Below, piece by piece: positions 21,296 through 29,755 of a DNA stretch of 64,000 bases. Below the pieces are notes generated by a model. It ran no database searches. It was given only the letters and a program-made list of their open reading frames with translations, and was not told the origin of the DNA. The first letter of the stretch is position 1; every line of letters begins with the position of its first letter. The position numbers and the translations under genes are program-made. Source of the stretch: Oscillatoriales cyanobacterium RM2_1_1 (GTDB lineage: Bacteria; Cyanobacteriota; Cyanobacteriia; Cyanobacteriales; Microcoleaceae); contig JAAURB010000002.1 of NCBI GenBank assembly GCA_012033335.1, forward strand, positions 1 to 64,000. The letters are read 5' to 3'.

Positions 21296-22045
21296 CTAGT
21301 TATAACAGTCAGCTTTTTCTTGTACTTGTTGTCCTGGGAGCTGATTGATCGCTGCCCAAAATTGCAAAATTTCTGCTTTGACTTTCTCAGGAAAAAAGTA
21401 ATGAAAAAAGTGACCGCCTTGAGGAAATTGACAAAGGCGATCGCCCTCTTTCAAAAAACTTTTCCACTTCTGTAGTTCCAAGGCCCCGATCACATCATCT
21501 GTCAAGCTACCACAAATCAGTAAAGGCACAGATACGCCTCCGGGTGGCACTTGAAACTGCTGAATGGGAGAATGCAGTGAGAAAGATTCCATTAAATCAA
21601 GCTCCAGCCATCCCACAGCTTTTCGCTCTAAAATTGGAGATCGAATCCCACAAGTCCTGACCATTTGCCGCAGGAGTTGCTGACGGGAACAGGGAAGCAA
21701 TTGCTGCTGGACATAGTAATGAGATTTCCAGTCAATGGCAGGATGGACTCCAACAGAAAGCAACGTCAAAGATTTGACTCGCTTAGGATACTGGCGGGCA
21801 TATAGTAATCCCAGCAATCCTCCTGTGCTGTGTCCAATCAAATGCACAGGACGGCTAAATGATTTCAGATAATCATGCACCAAAGTTAATCCCACACTCA
21901 GTAAACTGGGTTCATCTAAACTTTGTTGATATTCCCAGTAGGCTACTAGATTTGCTGAACTTACTTCAGCAATCAATTCCTGGTCAAAATGTTGCAGACT
22001 AGGACTTGTATTTAACCAAACCACATCAGGTAAACAAGGGTGCAT
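21296..22045 (-). CDS. isiC: Alpha/beta hydrolase, IsiC-like
   Basis: A 249-residue alpha/beta-hydrolase. The nucleophile serine is in the elbow LIGHSTGGLLG, the acid is probably in CGSLTDDVIG and the histidine in FPQGGHFFHYFFP. In other cyanobacteria an esterase-like gene called isiC follows isiA and isiB; the position here (95 bp after flavodoxin, same strand) supports the same assignment. Substrate unknown. The N-terminus is short for the fold: the usual first strand and oxyanion loop are weak, so a start further upstream in another codon cannot be excluded. Confidence 0.8.
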   Translation of the reverse strand: MHPCLPDVVWLNTSPSLQHFDQELIAEVSSANLVAYWEYQQSLDEPSLLSVGLTLVHDYLKSFSRPVHLIGHSTGGLLGLLYARQYPKRVKSLTLLSVGVHPAIDWKSHYYVQQQLLPCSRQQLLRQMVRTCGIRSPILERKAVGWLELDLMESFSLHSPIQQFQVPPGGVSVPLLICGSLTDDVIGALELQKWKSFLKEGDRLCQFPQGGHFFHYFFPEKVKAEILQFWAAINQLPGQQVQEKADCYN

Positions 22046-22139: not shown

Positions 22140-22652
22140 CTAAATTTCAAATTCAGTCTTAAGCTGAGTTACCCATTGTTGAATCCGCTTTTCAGTCAGT
22201 TCAGATTCATTATCTTCATCCAGGGCTAAACCCACGAATTTACCATTTTTAACGGCTTTTGACTCAGCGTGTTCATAGCCATCTGTTGGCCATTGTCCGA
22301 CAGTTTTACCCCCTAAGCTTGAAATTTTTTCCTCCAGTATTCCCATCGCATCCTGAAAGTTATCGGCATAGCCAATCTGATCACCTGTGCCAAAGTAAGC
22401 TACCTTTTTGCCACTGAAGTCAATATTATCTAATTCATCAAAGTATCCTTCCCAGTCACTTTGAAGCTCACCAATATTCCAGGTGGGACAACCCACGATA
22501 ATATTTTCATAGTTATTGAATTCTTCATCTTTGGTATTAGCAATATCATGTAATTCAATCACTGAATTGCCTCCAAAAGCTTCCTGAATTATCTCAGCAA
22601 CATTTTCGGTTTTACCTGTTGTTGTCCCAAAAAATAGACCAATTTTCGACAT
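22140..22652 (-). CDS. isiB: Flavodoxin (iron-stress induced)
   Basis: An FMN protein that replaces ferredoxin as electron carrier from photosystem I when iron is scarce. The 170 residues match long-chain flavodoxins. The phosphate loop is FFGTTTGKTENVAE near the N-terminus, the FMN-stacking regions are GCPTWNIGELQSDWEGYFDE and GTGDQIGYADNFQDAMG, and the long-chain insertion is present. The ribosome site GAGGAAGAAAA precedes the ATG. It follows the IsiA cluster but is separated by 546 bp holding a small zinc-ribbon gene, so it may have its own promoter. Confidence 0.97.
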   Translation of the reverse strand: MSKIGLFFGTTTGKTENVAEIIQEAFGGNSVIELHDIANTKDEEFNNYENIIVGCPTWNIGELQSDWEGYFDELDNIDFSGKKVAYFGTGDQIGYADNFQDAMGILEEKISSLGGKTVGQWPTDGYEHAESKAVKNGKFVGLALDEDNESELTEKRIQQWVTQLKTEFEI

Positions 22653-23198: not shown

Positions 23199-24200
23199 CT
23201 AATGAGTCATTTGGGAACGGGCGCGAACAGCGTGCCAGAGATGACCCACTAGAGCCAGAACTCCTAGAAAGAACTGTATGTCAGCTAAACCCAGGCGACT
23301 GTTACCATAGAATTCCACCGGAAACACTGTGGTATTAAACCCAACAAACGCAGTTGAGACAAAAGCCATAAATGCCAGTGCGGCCAAACTGTAGCTGAGA
23401 ATAGCATCCGCTTGAATGGGGATTAATCGTTGAGCCCAGGGGAACGGTGTGCTGACGATATGCCAGGTGCCCCCTGCAATTAACAGGGTGCCAATCCAGA
23501 TATGACCCCCAATCACATCTTCCAGACGGCTCACACTCGCCATTCCCAGAAGTGTCCAGGTTCCATGGTTGAGGCCGAACAAATAGCCAAAAATTGTCAC
23601 AGGGTTCAAGGTTGGTTGGGTAATCAAGCGAACATTTCCCACCGCTACATCATAAATTCCGCCCCAGGTAGTGGCTTTCAGCACAAACAGCCACGCTCCA
23701 ATGCCCAGGAAAACTAGATGATTGCCCAGAATAAAGCTGAGTTTCTTCGGATCCGTCCATTCATAATGAAACTGAGTGACCCAACTGTCTCCATCCTCCA
23801 GACGAGCAGGGCCGCGAAAAATGTGGTAAAACCCCCCGGCAGCTAGTACAGCGGAGGCAATGAGATGCAGCATCCCAATCACAAAATAGGGATAGGTATC
23901 GACAATTGTGCCGTCTTGGCCTATCCCCCAGCCCAAGGTAGCAAGGTGAGGCAATAATCCCAAGTGCTGTTCGGCCAATGAATGACCAGGAAGATAGCGT
24001 CCCACTTCTGCAATGGTGACTGACCCTGCCCAGAACAAGATTAATCCGGCATGGGCCAGATGGGCTCCCAGAAGTTGACCCGATAAATTGGTCAGGCGAG
24101 CATTGCCCACTAACCAACTGAGTTTCGGATTTTCCGCCGCAATTGTTCCCTCAATGTGGGTCAAATCAATATCAGTTGGATTGGTGTAGGTTGAAACCAT
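23199..24200 (-). CDS. Divergent IsiA/Pcb-family chlorophyll-binding antenna protein
   Basis: A 333-residue six-helix CP43-like antenna protein. It keeps [70 protein letters not shown] and a last-helix GHLWHAVRARS, whose histidines ligate chlorophyll. It differs from IsiA by an extended N-terminus (about 28 residues before SWLVGNAR, where others have WWAGNAR), a longer loop with GLNHGTWTLLGMASVSRLED, and a much shorter lumenal loop before the sixth helix (NSRLGLADIQFF). It is last of the five antenna genes, 203 bp after isiA, with a strong hairpin between. Confidence 0.92.
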   Translation of the reverse strand: MVSTYTNPTDIDLTHIEGTIAAENPKLSWLVGNARLTNLSGQLLGAHLAHAGLILFWAGSVTIAEVGRYLPGHSLAEQHLGLLPHLATLGWGIGQDGTIVDTYPYFVIGMLHLIASAVLAAGGFYHIFRGPARLEDGDSWVTQFHYEWTDPKKLSFILGNHLVFLGIGAWLFVLKATTWGGIYDVAVGNVRLITQPTLNPVTIFGYLFGLNHGTWTLLGMASVSRLEDVIGGHIWIGTLLIAGGTWHIVSTPFPWAQRLIPIQADAILSYSLAALAFMAFVSTAFVGFNTTVFPVEFYGNSRLGLADIQFFLGVLALVGHLWHAVRARSQMTH

Positions 24201-24403: not shown

Positions 24404-25492
24404 CTAAGCTTCAGTTGCAGCAGGTGCCTTCACCGGTTCTGGTACGCCCGTGAGGGTCATTGGAGCCTCTCCAGTTGAATTTAAAGCATCTCCAACTCGC
24501 TGGAAGTCAAATCCCAGCGATCGCAGAGCGTGCCAGAGATGACCTTGCAAAAAGAAGAACGCCAGGAAGAAGTGAGCATTGGCTAACCAACACCGGGCCG
24601 TATGAGCCCCATTCGCTAAGGTGACAGTATCAGCAAAGTAAGGCGTGATCCCTAACTTGACCTCTAGTACCGGGCCATAAAACTCAACCGGGTAAGCCAG
24701 GGTATTCACTGCACAGAAGTAGGCCGCAACAAACCCAGCCAGGGCAATTCCACCCAGAGAATAGGACAAAATTGCTTCGCCCGAAAAAATCAATACCCGC
24801 TTTGCCCAAGGCAACGGCTCCTTCACAATGTGCCAAACGCCACCTAGAATTAACAAAATTCCTACGTAGATATGGCCTCCAACCAGGTCTTCCAGATTAT
24901 TCACTGACGCAAAGTGAGTCTGGTAGCCATAAATAACGAGCGGGTCAAGGGTGGGAGCCGTAACAACTCGTACCGTTTGACTGGTAGCATCGTATAACCC
25001 ACCGAAATAGATTGCCTTTGCAGCCAGGGCTAATGCACCCGCCCCTAGGAACAACAGATGATGTCCCAGAATAATTCCGATCTGCTTGGGATCATCCCAA
25101 GAAAAGTGAAACCGCTTTGCTGGCCCTTGAGCATCCTTAAGATTTTCAGGACACTTGAAGGTGTGGAATAACGCACCCGCTCCGAGAACGGCGGAGGAAA
25201 TGAGATGAACCATACCAATGACGAAGTAGGGATAGGTATCGACGACAGCGCCCCCCTCGCCAATACCAAGACCCAACGTTGCCAGGTGAGGCAGCAAAAT
25301 CAATCCTTGTTCCCCCATGGGAATGTTGGGAGAATAATTGCCAATCTCAAACAAGGTAAAGGCTCCAGCCCAGAAGGTGATCAGAGCGGCTTGAGCGACG
25401 TGAGCGGCGATGAATAGGCCCGATAGATTAGCGAAGCGAGCATTTCCAGCCCACCAGTCATATCGAATCTTCGGTTTTCCGTAACTTTGCAT
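24404..25492 (-). CDS. isiA: Iron-stress-induced chlorophyll-binding protein IsiA (CP43')
   Basis: The canonical member of the cluster: [20 protein letters not shown] at the start, then [20 protein letters not shown] and [16 protein letters not shown] are the usual IsiA sequences. At 362 residues it is slightly longer than many IsiA proteins because of a C-terminal Pro/Thr-rich tail ([18 protein letters not shown]). Six membrane helices carry chlorophyll-ligating histidines; the large PsbC lumenal loop is absent, as in all IsiA/Pcb proteins. IsiA forms rings around photosystem I under iron limitation and dissipates energy. It follows the PsaL-fusion gene by 93 bp; AGGAG precedes the ATG. Confidence 0.95.
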
Positions 25493-25585: not shown

Positions 25586-27052
25586 TTACCCTGGAACTCC
25601 CTGAATCAATGCCTGGAACAGTTCAGTGTTTTGTAGCAGGAAGTAAACCAATAGTGCACCCCCTACACCTCCAACCAGGAATCCAGCTTGAAAAGAACTC
25701 CACTGTTCCAGATTTTTTAGCCAGTAGAATCGATTTGCAGAATCAACACCTTCTACCTGATACCTAGAGAGGACAATTCCAATCAAACCAATCAGTGTCA
25801 CCGTGAGTACCAATCCGGCTGAAATGGCTGATCTAGATGTATTCAACGGATTTAGTAGCATTAATGGCCCGGCCAGAAAGTAGCCGTGAGCCATACCAAT
25901 TTCCAGCCCTCGAAATAAAGGTGAAACCCCTCGACGATAAATGGGTAAATTTCGCAAAAACGTTACAGTGATGTCAGACGGCTTGACCTGTCCAACTGCC
26001 TGAAGCCATTCAACTTCCGCCGGTCGGGGAGTCGTCATTGTTCCAGACTGCATATCAAATCTCGCTGCCCGTGTCCGAACCCGAACTCCGTGCCACAGAT
26101 GACCAAACAAGAACAGGATCGCCAGCACAAAATGAGAGGTTGCCAGCCAGGTACGGGAGGTCACAACTCCGGCATCTGTCACTGATAATCCCACAGGCCC
26201 ATAGAAGATCTCCGGATAAACAGTGTCATTGACCATCACAAAATAGGCAGCCAGGAATCCCATGTAGGCCAGAGCTCCCAAACTGTAGGAGAGATAGGCT
26301 TCTCCTGACCACAGAAAGAGCGGCTGTACCCATTGACGAGGTTGAGTCACGATATGCCAAATTCCACCCCCGATCAGGATGAGACCGACATAAATGTGAC
26401 CCCCAACCACATCTTCCAAATTGTTAACCGCCACCATACCGCCATGCCCCTGAGCACCTACCAAATACCCGAAGATAACAGTAGGACTCAGGGTCGGCTG
26501 AGTAATTACTCGCACATCACTCACGGCAGGATCATACAAGCCGCCCACAACCATGGCTTTAATGACTAGCAGCAATGCCCCAAATCCCAGCAGTACCAGG
26601 TGAATACCGAGAATTGTGGTCATTTTGTTCTGGTCTCGCCAGTTGTATCCGAAGAAACCAGGGAAGGTTTGACCTTCAGGAAGAATTTCTGGCCCTAGCA
26701 ATGCGTGGTAGATTCCCCCCGCTCCCAGAACGGCGGAACTCACCAAGTGAACAACGCCAATGGCGAAGTAGGGGTAAAGATTAACCAATTGTCCCCCCTC
26801 CCCGACCCCAAAACCTAAACTTGCCAGGTGAGGGATCAAGATTAAGCCCTGGCCATAGATGGGTTCAGCTAGATTGTATCGGGACAGTTCAAACAAGGTG
26901 TAAGCCCCTGCCCAGAATACAATCAGCGCCGCTTGAGCGATATGAGCCCCCAGTAACTTCCCAGAAAGCTCTGTCAGTCGGGCATTGCCAGCCCACCAAC
27001 CGTACTTCTGAGCCGACTGAACTGAAGATGAAATCGATACTGTTGCAGTCAT
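25586..27052 (-). CDS. IsiA/Pcb-PsaL fusion antenna protein
   Basis: 488 residues in two parts. Residues about 1-330 are a six-helix CP43-like antenna ([70 protein letters not shown]). Residues about 340-488 are a PsaL domain: [37 protein letters not shown] and [20 protein letters not shown]. PsaL is the photosystem I subunit at the trimer interface, so the fusion could dock the antenna in place of PsaL. The frame is open to 27106, but ATG 27052 overlaps the upstream stop as ATGA, which fixes the start. IsiA-PsaL fusions are known in several cyanobacteria. Confidence 0.94.
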
Positions 27053-28065
27053 CGTCGGTAATCTACTCCTGTTGCAGCATAGGTTCGGACTCGAATCGCG
27101 TGCCAAATGTGACCGATCAGCAGCACACCTGACAGAACAAAATGGCTATTGGCCAACCAGGTACGAGCGCTAACCACATCCACCCCAGCTACACTAATTG
27201 GCCCATAGAATACTTCCGGGTAGGCCAGGGTATTGAAGGTGGCAAAATATCCACCGAGAAAGCCCATATAGGCCAGAGCCCCCAAGCTGTAGGAAAGATA
27301 GGCTTCCCCTGTCCAGTAGAGCGATCGCTGCGCCCAGGCAAAGGGTTTCGTCGCAATATGCCAGATCCCGCCTAGAATGCAAACGAATCCAATCCAAACA
27401 TGACCCCCCACTAAATCTTCCAGGTTATCAACGGCTGCCATGCCCTTTGCACCTTGCAGTCCGAATAGGTAGCTGAAGATTCGTCCTGGATTCAGAGTGG
27501 GGTCAGTCACAACTCGCACATTCTCAACAGTGGGGTCATACAACCCGCCCCAGAACAGGGCTTTTCCAACCAGAAACCAGGCTCCCAAGCCCAACAAGAT
27601 CAGATGAATCCCAATGATCGTGGTCATCTTGCCTTTGTCAGACCAGTCATAGCCAAAGAAACCAGAAAAGCTCTTCTCCTGAGGGAGAACATCGGGGCCA
27701 ATCAGGGAATGATATAACCCGCCCGCTCCCAAGACGGCTGAGCTAACCAGGTGGATCACGCCAATAGCGAAATAGGGATAAGTATTTACTACTGCTCCTC
27801 CGGCTCCCACACCAATTCCCAGGCTAGCCAGGTGAGGTAATAGAATCAAACCCTGCTCGTACATCGGCAGACTCGGATCAAATCTGGACAGTTCAAACAG
27901 TGTCATTGCTCCTGCCCAAAGCACAATCAGACCTGCATGGGCAATGTGTGCCCCCAACAACTTCCCAGACAGATGAGTGAATCGAGCATTTCCTGCTGAC
28001 CAAGTGTATTGCTTCGGGGTTTGAGAGGTTGTTTGAGGGATGGTTTGAGGGACAGCAACCGTCAT
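27049..28065 (-). CDS. IsiA/Pcb-family chlorophyll-binding antenna protein
   Basis: 338 residues, six helices, beginning after a Gln/Thr-rich lead with [20 protein letters not shown]. The chlorophyll-site histidine segments [44 protein letters not shown] and [15 protein letters not shown] are intact. It resembles the antenna half of the following PsaL fusion most (both have FFGYDW/FFGYNW and '[20 protein letters not shown]'-like loops), which suggests a local duplication. Start and stop overlap both neighbours by 4 nt (ATGA), so translation is coupled in a three-gene unit. Confidence 0.94.
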
Positions 28066-29129
28066 GCAGAAACCTCCTTCGGTGCGTTAGCATCCTGTAC
28101 CAAATCCTGAATCCGCTTACCCGAGCGGAAATCAAATCCCGCCGCTCGCAAGGCATGGAAAATATGACCCTGGAGGAAGAAAAAACCAAGCCAGAATTGA
28201 GCATTGGCTAACCAAACCCGAGAGGTTAATGCCCCCTCTGGATCGCGGAAATAGGGAAACTGTTCCAACCCTACCCTGAGAGGTGGCCCATAAAATTCAG
28301 GGGGATAGGCGATGGTATTCACCGAAACAAACAAGGCGGCAATGAACGACATCAACGCCACTGCCCCAACGCTGTAGGACAGATAGGCTTCCCCTGAAAA
28401 GATCAAGACACGCTTCACCCAACCAAACGGTTCGGTCAGAATATGCCAAACTCCACCCCCGATCAGAATCAAGCCAATAAAGATATGACCGCCAACTAGA
28501 TCGTCCAGGTTATCCACCGCAGCTAACCAGAAATAACCCTGGGTTCCAAATAAATACCCAAAGATTGTGGCTGGATTCAACGTTGGGTCAGTGACCACCC
28601 GAACATCATCAACGGAGGTATCGTACAAGCCACCAAAAAACATTGCCTTGGCCACCAACAGAAATGCACCACCGCCGAGCAATAGCAGGTGGATACCGAT
28701 GATGGTGGTCATTTTTTTACCATCTTCCCAGTTGTAGCCAAAGAAGGAAAACTGATTTTCCAAAATTGCTGGCCCCTTCAAGGCATGGAAAACACCACCG
28801 AATCCCAGAAAAGCCGAGCTGATCAGATGCAGTGCCCCCACAACAAAATAGGGATGGGTATCCACCACCGCACCACCAGCGCCAACACCCCAACCTTCAG
28901 CAGCCAGGTGAGGTAAGAGAATCAAGTTTTGTTCGTACATCGGTAAATCGGGATTCAACTGCCCCAGTTCAAACAGGGTGTAGATTCCTGCCCAAAATAC
29001 AATTAACCCTCCATGGGCAACGTGGGCACCGAGCAAGCGACCCGACAAGCTTGCTAATCGACCATTTCCAGCCCACCAGGGAAAAGATTGCCTCTCGGCT
29101 GGAAAGGTATCAGTCACTATACTGGTCAT
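28062..29129 (-). CDS. IsiA/Pcb-family chlorophyll-binding antenna protein, first gene of the cluster
   Basis: 355 residues, six helices. It has [20 protein letters not shown] at the start, [34 protein letters not shown], and the lumenal loop [20 protein letters not shown], which is the longer IsiA-type loop. The C-terminal [19 protein letters not shown] is like that of IsiA. The ATG follows a perfect AGGAGG by five bases. As the first gene it should lie nearest the cluster promoter. Its stop overlaps the next start by 4 nt. Confidence 0.94.
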
Positions 29130-29173: not shown

Positions 29174-29196
29174 TTATTGAGATTAATATTCAATAA
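29174..29196 (-). promoter_or_regulatory. Inverted repeat upstream of the antenna cluster, possible Fur-type operator
   Basis: TTATTGA, nine bases, TCAATAA: a 7-9-7 AT-rich palindrome 45 bp upstream of the first antenna gene. Its place, size and composition resemble ferric-uptake-regulator sites, but the match to the Fur consensus is loose. Candidate only. Confidence 0.4.
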
Positions 29197-29396
29197 TAAC
29201 TTTGTCCATGTCAAGTTTATTGCGATTTTGTTACAGGTAGTGATCTAAGCGATCGCAGTACTTATAACCTGAGACACGGGAAATACCATAAGGTAAAGGG
29301 GTGGGTGGCGAAGTGAATCACTCCTGCGTTATTTGCAATACACTTAAAAAGTTTTTGCAATAATATCCTGGGCTTTCCAGGAGACTGTAAATTAAC

Positions 29397-29755
29397 AGGA
29401 CTTATGCATTGACAAAATACAGAGAATGTGGTGTTCAGAGATCGCCAAGCAAAAGAGGCTTCTGAAGACTAAATTGCCACTCAATCACGTGACGTACCGA
29501 TTCAAACAGGTCTTTGGGTTCGTAGCATTCTCTACAGAGAAATCGGTTCACACTGTCATGGGAAACCGTTTTGAGAATCGCCCCTAGGTGGCAGCATCCT
29601 GACCCTTGAGGTTAAGCTAGTAGATATCGGACGTAGCAATTAATGTCGCAGTTGGCCGTTGAGGGTTTACTGAGAGTTCGTAAACTTTCTTGGGAAAACG
29701 CAAGGACTTACACCTTCAACTCACACAATAGCCTTTCTGTCAATGCGTAAGTCCT
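29397..29755 (-). mobile_element. Insertion-sequence remnant (359 bp) with 18-bp terminal inverted repeats
   Basis: The ends AGGACTTATGCATTGACA (29397-29414) and the reverse complement of 29738-29755, AGGACTTACGCATTGACA, match at 17 of 18 bases. Inside, the minus strand (about 29587-29435) reads LKTVSHDSVNRFLCRECYEP and KDLFESVRHVIEWQF, which resembles the N-terminus of IS4/IS701-like transposases ('SHDSVNRFL'). Most of the transposase is gone. It lies between the antenna cluster and ktrA. Confidence 0.78.

Follow-up and report, generated by a model that had tools for sequence, protein, structure and literature searches.

The isi cluster of Oscillatoriales cyanobacterium RM2_1_1

The window, a stretch of 64,000 nucleotides (positions 1 to 64,000 of contig JAAURB010000002.1) from Oscillatoriales cyanobacterium RM2_1_1, contains a cluster of antenna genes of the isiA family. 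In the direction of transcription, the locus consists of the following features:

29185..29214, reverse strand: possible sigma-70 type promoter, TTGACA-18-AATATT, upstream of the cluster (consensus match only)
28062..29129, reverse strand: gene A, unfused antenna of the IsiA family, 355 aa, corresponding to Anabaena chain 9zjt_2 (506 bits)
27049..28065, reverse strand: gene B, unfused IsiA-family antenna, 338 aa, with ATGA overlaps at both ends
25586..27052, reverse strand: gene C, isiA-psaL fusion (IsiA2/IsiA4 type, CBPV), 488 aa, recognized from the open reading frame, Pfam and database matches
24404..25492, reverse strand: gene D, canonical isiA (IsiA1), 362 aa (614 bits to Anabaena IsiA1)
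23199..24200, reverse strand: gene E, short antenna of the IsiA family, 333 aa, corresponding to Anabaena chain 9zjt_3 (433 bits)
22140..22652, reverse strand: isiB, long-chain flavodoxin (profile matches)
21296..22045, reverse strand: alpha/beta hydrolase of the kind that adjoins isiB in relatives (PMC3610870)

With five isiA-family genes, isiB and the alpha/beta hydrolase, this is a complete, ordinary iron-stress cluster. The first-pass annotation, made from the DNA letters alone, had associated the fusion with two unfused antenna genes. Two such genes are indeed located upstream and coupled to it, but their actual total is four, as two more follow downstream; the first of these, gene D, begins 93 nt behind the fusion with a start of its own.

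Sites matching the sigma-70 consensus are no more numerous upstream of the cluster than in shuffled sequences, and a search for a Fur box, covering the region upstream of the cluster and the gaps within it, returned nothing above shuffled sequence. Just upstream of the cluster, a 359-bp stretch (29397-29755) is bounded by 21-nt inverted repeats, AGGACTTATGCATTGACAAAA and TTCTGTCAATGCGTAAGTCCT, that are 90% identical, and contains only short broken frames. It looks like a remnant of an insertion sequence.

The fusion protein is a PsaL-tailed member of the IsiA family

Gene C starts with ATG at 27052, ends with TAA and forms one uninterrupted frame. A longer version of 506 aa, beginning with TTG, is open as well; comparison with relatives supports the ATG as the probable start. 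The antenna domain, comprising approximately residues 1-335, is followed by a linker and a PsaL-like domain (residues 356-477). Pfam recognizes PSII (CP43 type) at residues 17-288 (E 2e-72) and PsaL (PF02605) at residues 356-477 (E 7e-37, 126.9 bits against a cut-off of 25). Both domains are read in one frame, which confirms the 488-residue antenna-PsaL fusion of the first-pass annotation, and the two motifs quoted there from the PsaL half are both present in the translation.

Among proteins of solved structure, the best match is Anabaena IsiA2 (PDB 7Y3F, chain 7y3f_1; also 9ZJT), to which residues 12-479 of the fusion align with 607 bits (E 1.8e-181). Identity as CP43 (PsbC) of photosystem II was considered and rejected: the score against TIGR01153 is 403 bits, below the cut-off of 603, and the large lumenal loop is missing. 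CP43 chains align to the fusion in two pieces, query residues 10-298 and 285-334 corresponding to chain residues 14-304 and 396-445, and it is this split that reveals the lack of the loop.

The protein thus combines a CP43-type antenna without the large lumenal loop and an in-frame C-terminal PsaL. Its gene is clustered with other isiA genes and with the flavodoxin gene isiB, and it groups with other fused proteins in the trees of both halves. By sequence it can be assigned as a further member of the PsaL-fused IsiA proteins, already named IsiA2, IsiA4, CBPV or "PsbC-PsaL hybrid" and described in Leptolyngbya JSC-1, Nodularia, Anabaena, Trichodesmium and others (PMC3610870, PMC12090762, PMC9938196).

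Distribution and origin of the fusion

Among 386 genomes drawn evenly from the phylum, in which the neighbourhoods of fused loci were read, a PsaL-tailed antenna gene was found at 35 loci, the window included. Many cyanobacterial families contain the fusion. The antenna halves of all fusions fall within one clade of 41 rows (100/98), and the fused tails would fit a single origin, requiring one change, with modest support (78/55). The same clade encloses unfused genes, namely gene B and genes in five other genomes (L065-L069), so loss of the tail, or the making of a tailless copy, seems to have happened on more than one occasion.

Two of these genomes (L065 and L068) share the order unfused gene, A-type gene, fusion, similar to the isiA2-isiA3-isiA4 set of Trichodesmium, and in both it is the first, unfused gene that groups with the fusion clade. 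An antenna gene of Nostoc sp. B(2019) (L076:5995-7038) resembles the A type in its N-terminal part and the fusion type in its C-terminal part and ends early; directly downstream, GGAFFAFLLLSNSSLFF, which is where a PsaL tail ends, is encoded in another frame. This is a decayed, partly recombined fusion gene with a truncated tail out of frame, and a direct case of tail loss.

Gene overlaps and proposed translational coupling

The gene upstream of the fusion (28065-27049) ends ...CGATGACTG..., and its TGA overlaps the ATG of the fusion by 4 nt (ATGA), as the first-pass annotation had stated. A second ATGA overlap is located one junction upstream, between genes A and B (28065/28062). Across the fused loci, the distance from the upstream stop to the fusion start is -4 nt in the window and in L058, L060, L061 and L071, +2 nt in L039-L046, L068 and L070, 12-22 nt in five loci, and 41 to 276 nt in the other loci where the upstream gene is of the A type. 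L062 and L064, two genomes belonging to another family, have isiB between the A-type gene and the fusion. A start at most 22 nt from the upstream stop is found in 18 of the 35 fused loci. Tight spacing to the upstream gene is therefore frequent but not required, as the gaps span -4 to +276 nt or isiB intervenes. Shine-Dalgarno spacing was discarded as evidence of coupling: the fusion has GGAG 13 nt before its ATG, but the canonical isiA shows equal spacing.

According to a proposal in the first-pass annotation, A, B and the fusion are translationally coupled through the ATGA overlaps, and the fixed ratio of the docking subunit to its partners sets the size of the antenna ring. This model draws on the overlaps at two consecutive junctions and on the short distances in the 18 loci. 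Mild support comes from PDB 9ZJT, where, by chain counts, the fusion, the A-type and the E-type subunit are each listed once and IsiA1 four times; one fusion and one A-type chain permit a possible 1:1 ratio of these two. Overlaps of the ATGA type are, however, common in bacterial operons, and here neither the overlap nor the tight spacing is conserved, few relatives having ATGA, many having the longer gaps and two having isiB in between. Moreover IsiA1, the most numerous subunit of the ring, is encoded outside the coupled trio A, B and fusion, and its gene is not overlapped. In Anabaena, mRNA of the fusion is induced less than the mRNAs of the neighbouring isiA genes (PMC9938196). We consider control of ring stoichiometry by coupling improbable, and the proposal is left unsupported.

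The PsaL tail compared with the separate PsaL

A separate, normal psaL is present in the same genome (contig C20, 166 aa), and its product is closest to trimer-forming types such as that of Thermosynechococcus. In comparison with it, the tail of the fusion scores low against Pfam PsaL (about 127 bits vs 224), and its end branch in the tree of tails reaches 1.19. The tail is thus unusually divergent, and its binding to photosystem I (PSI) could be altered in this organism.

A check on the PsaL contact residues, suggested by the first-pass annotation, was carried out in part. The core RGLE...AHGY is kept, as it is in all 35 aligned fused tails, but where the separate PsaL has the loop GPLRDSD, the fusion has NPLNTSR. 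In trimers, the Ca2+ site of the interface lies in this loop. Its change would fit docking on PSI without trimer formation, a reading that is only suggestive because some other fusions keep the D. For the same reason, loss of the acidic residue was rejected as a general mark of fused tails, several of which retain it. Residues considered characteristic of the Anabaena tail, N451 and W454 among them, are missing from the fusion. Structure prediction of the whole protein, using a five-sequence alignment, gave a mean pLDDT of 52.6, too low to be informative.

That the tail is merely a decaying remnant without PSI docking, and the protein one more IsiA antenna, is very improbable, for despite the long branch, the low PsaL score, the unfused members of the clade and the truncated, frameshifted tail of Nostoc sp. 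B(2019), the frame here runs intact to the normal PsaL C-terminus with core motifs kept, and in relatives from the same family the tail is likewise divergent yet intact.

Proposed role of the fusion

We instead favour an active docking role. In the cryo-EM structure of the Anabaena complex, the tail of IsiA2 occupies the position of PsaL, which is absent, and PSI is a monomer whose PsaA side carries six IsiAs; IsiA2 is assumed to compete with PsaL (PMC9938196). According to the published mechanism, the PsaL-like tail, seated on PSI in place of PsaL, prevents oligomerisation and serves to anchor IsiAs to a PSI monomer. Iron strongly regulates the isiA2-isiA3-isiA4(PsaL) cluster of Trichodesmium and Leptolyngbya JSC-1 (PMC12090762). 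The first-pass annotation was right in seeing a PSI-docking antenna with a PsaL half, a role already established for the Anabaena relative (PMC9938196).

The fusion described here is very probably an IsiA-family chlorophyll antenna whose C-terminal PsaL-like tail replaces PsaL on PSI under iron limitation. By analogy with Anabaena, iron induction, replacement of PsaL and a complex of monomeric PSI with IsiA would be expected in this organism. When iron is limiting, the tail would take the place of PsaL on the PSI core, which would both keep the core monomeric and covalently fix the first antenna subunit on it. The other IsiA proteins of the cluster would then line up beside the anchored subunit and transfer excitation energy to PSI. 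Ordinary PSI oligomers would remain available through the separate psaL. As the fusion and a normal psaL are present in one genome, competition of their products for PSI cores, as in Anabaena, is the most likely reading.

Gene B may add one feature to this scheme. Its closest relative is the antenna half of the fusion (65% identity), its best solved match is the antenna half of IsiA2 (514 bits), and none of the solved Anabaena chains is a separate counterpart of it. B may be the sister either of C or of fusions from related genomes, with AU p of about 0.4 for the alternatives tested. Tentatively, and we think it rather unlikely, B could stem from a fusion that lost its PsaL tail or from a tandem duplication, be translated together with the fusion and take up a dedicated second position beside the anchored subunit; the crescent on the PSI monomer would then have one specialised position more than in Anabaena.

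The locus presents a new clear example of a known strategy, an antenna carrying its own PSI-docking domain, and raises no new question of mechanism.

Comparison with known systems

The closest parallel is Anabaena sp. PCC 7120 IsiA2 (7Y3F, 9ZJT; PMC9938196). The two-domain layout is shared over the full length, and the fusion is flanked by counterparts of the other Anabaena IsiAs (A, D and E, compared with 9ZJT). In contrast to Anabaena, the tail lacks the Anabaena-specific W/F/N/W residues, and an additional unfused relative, B, adjoins the fusion upstream with the ATGA overlap. Anabaena also forms PSI tetramers, whereas the separate PsaL found here is nearest to the trimer-forming types (Thermosynechococcus).

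Leptolyngbya sp. JSC-1 (isiA2-isiA3-isiA4-cpcG2-isiA5) and Trichodesmium (Tery_2483-2485) likewise have a PsaL-fused isiA4 that comes after two isiA genes without a tail, and JSC-1 also has five genes of the isiA family (PMC12090762). Unlike in these two, all five genes and isiB lie here in one cluster, and B groups with the fusion-type antennae; the cpcG2 that JSC-1 has between the fusion and the later antenna gene is absent.

Nodularia spumigena CCY9414 encodes, as Nsp37500, a CP43-like protein with a PsaL tail, the "PsbC-PsaL hybrid" (CBPV), again clustered with isiA, flavodoxin and an alpha/beta hydrolase, and possibly transcribed as one long operon (PMC3610870). That cluster differs in having four antenna genes instead of five and, at its presumed locus in our draw (L044), a fusion that starts 2 nt after the upstream stop.
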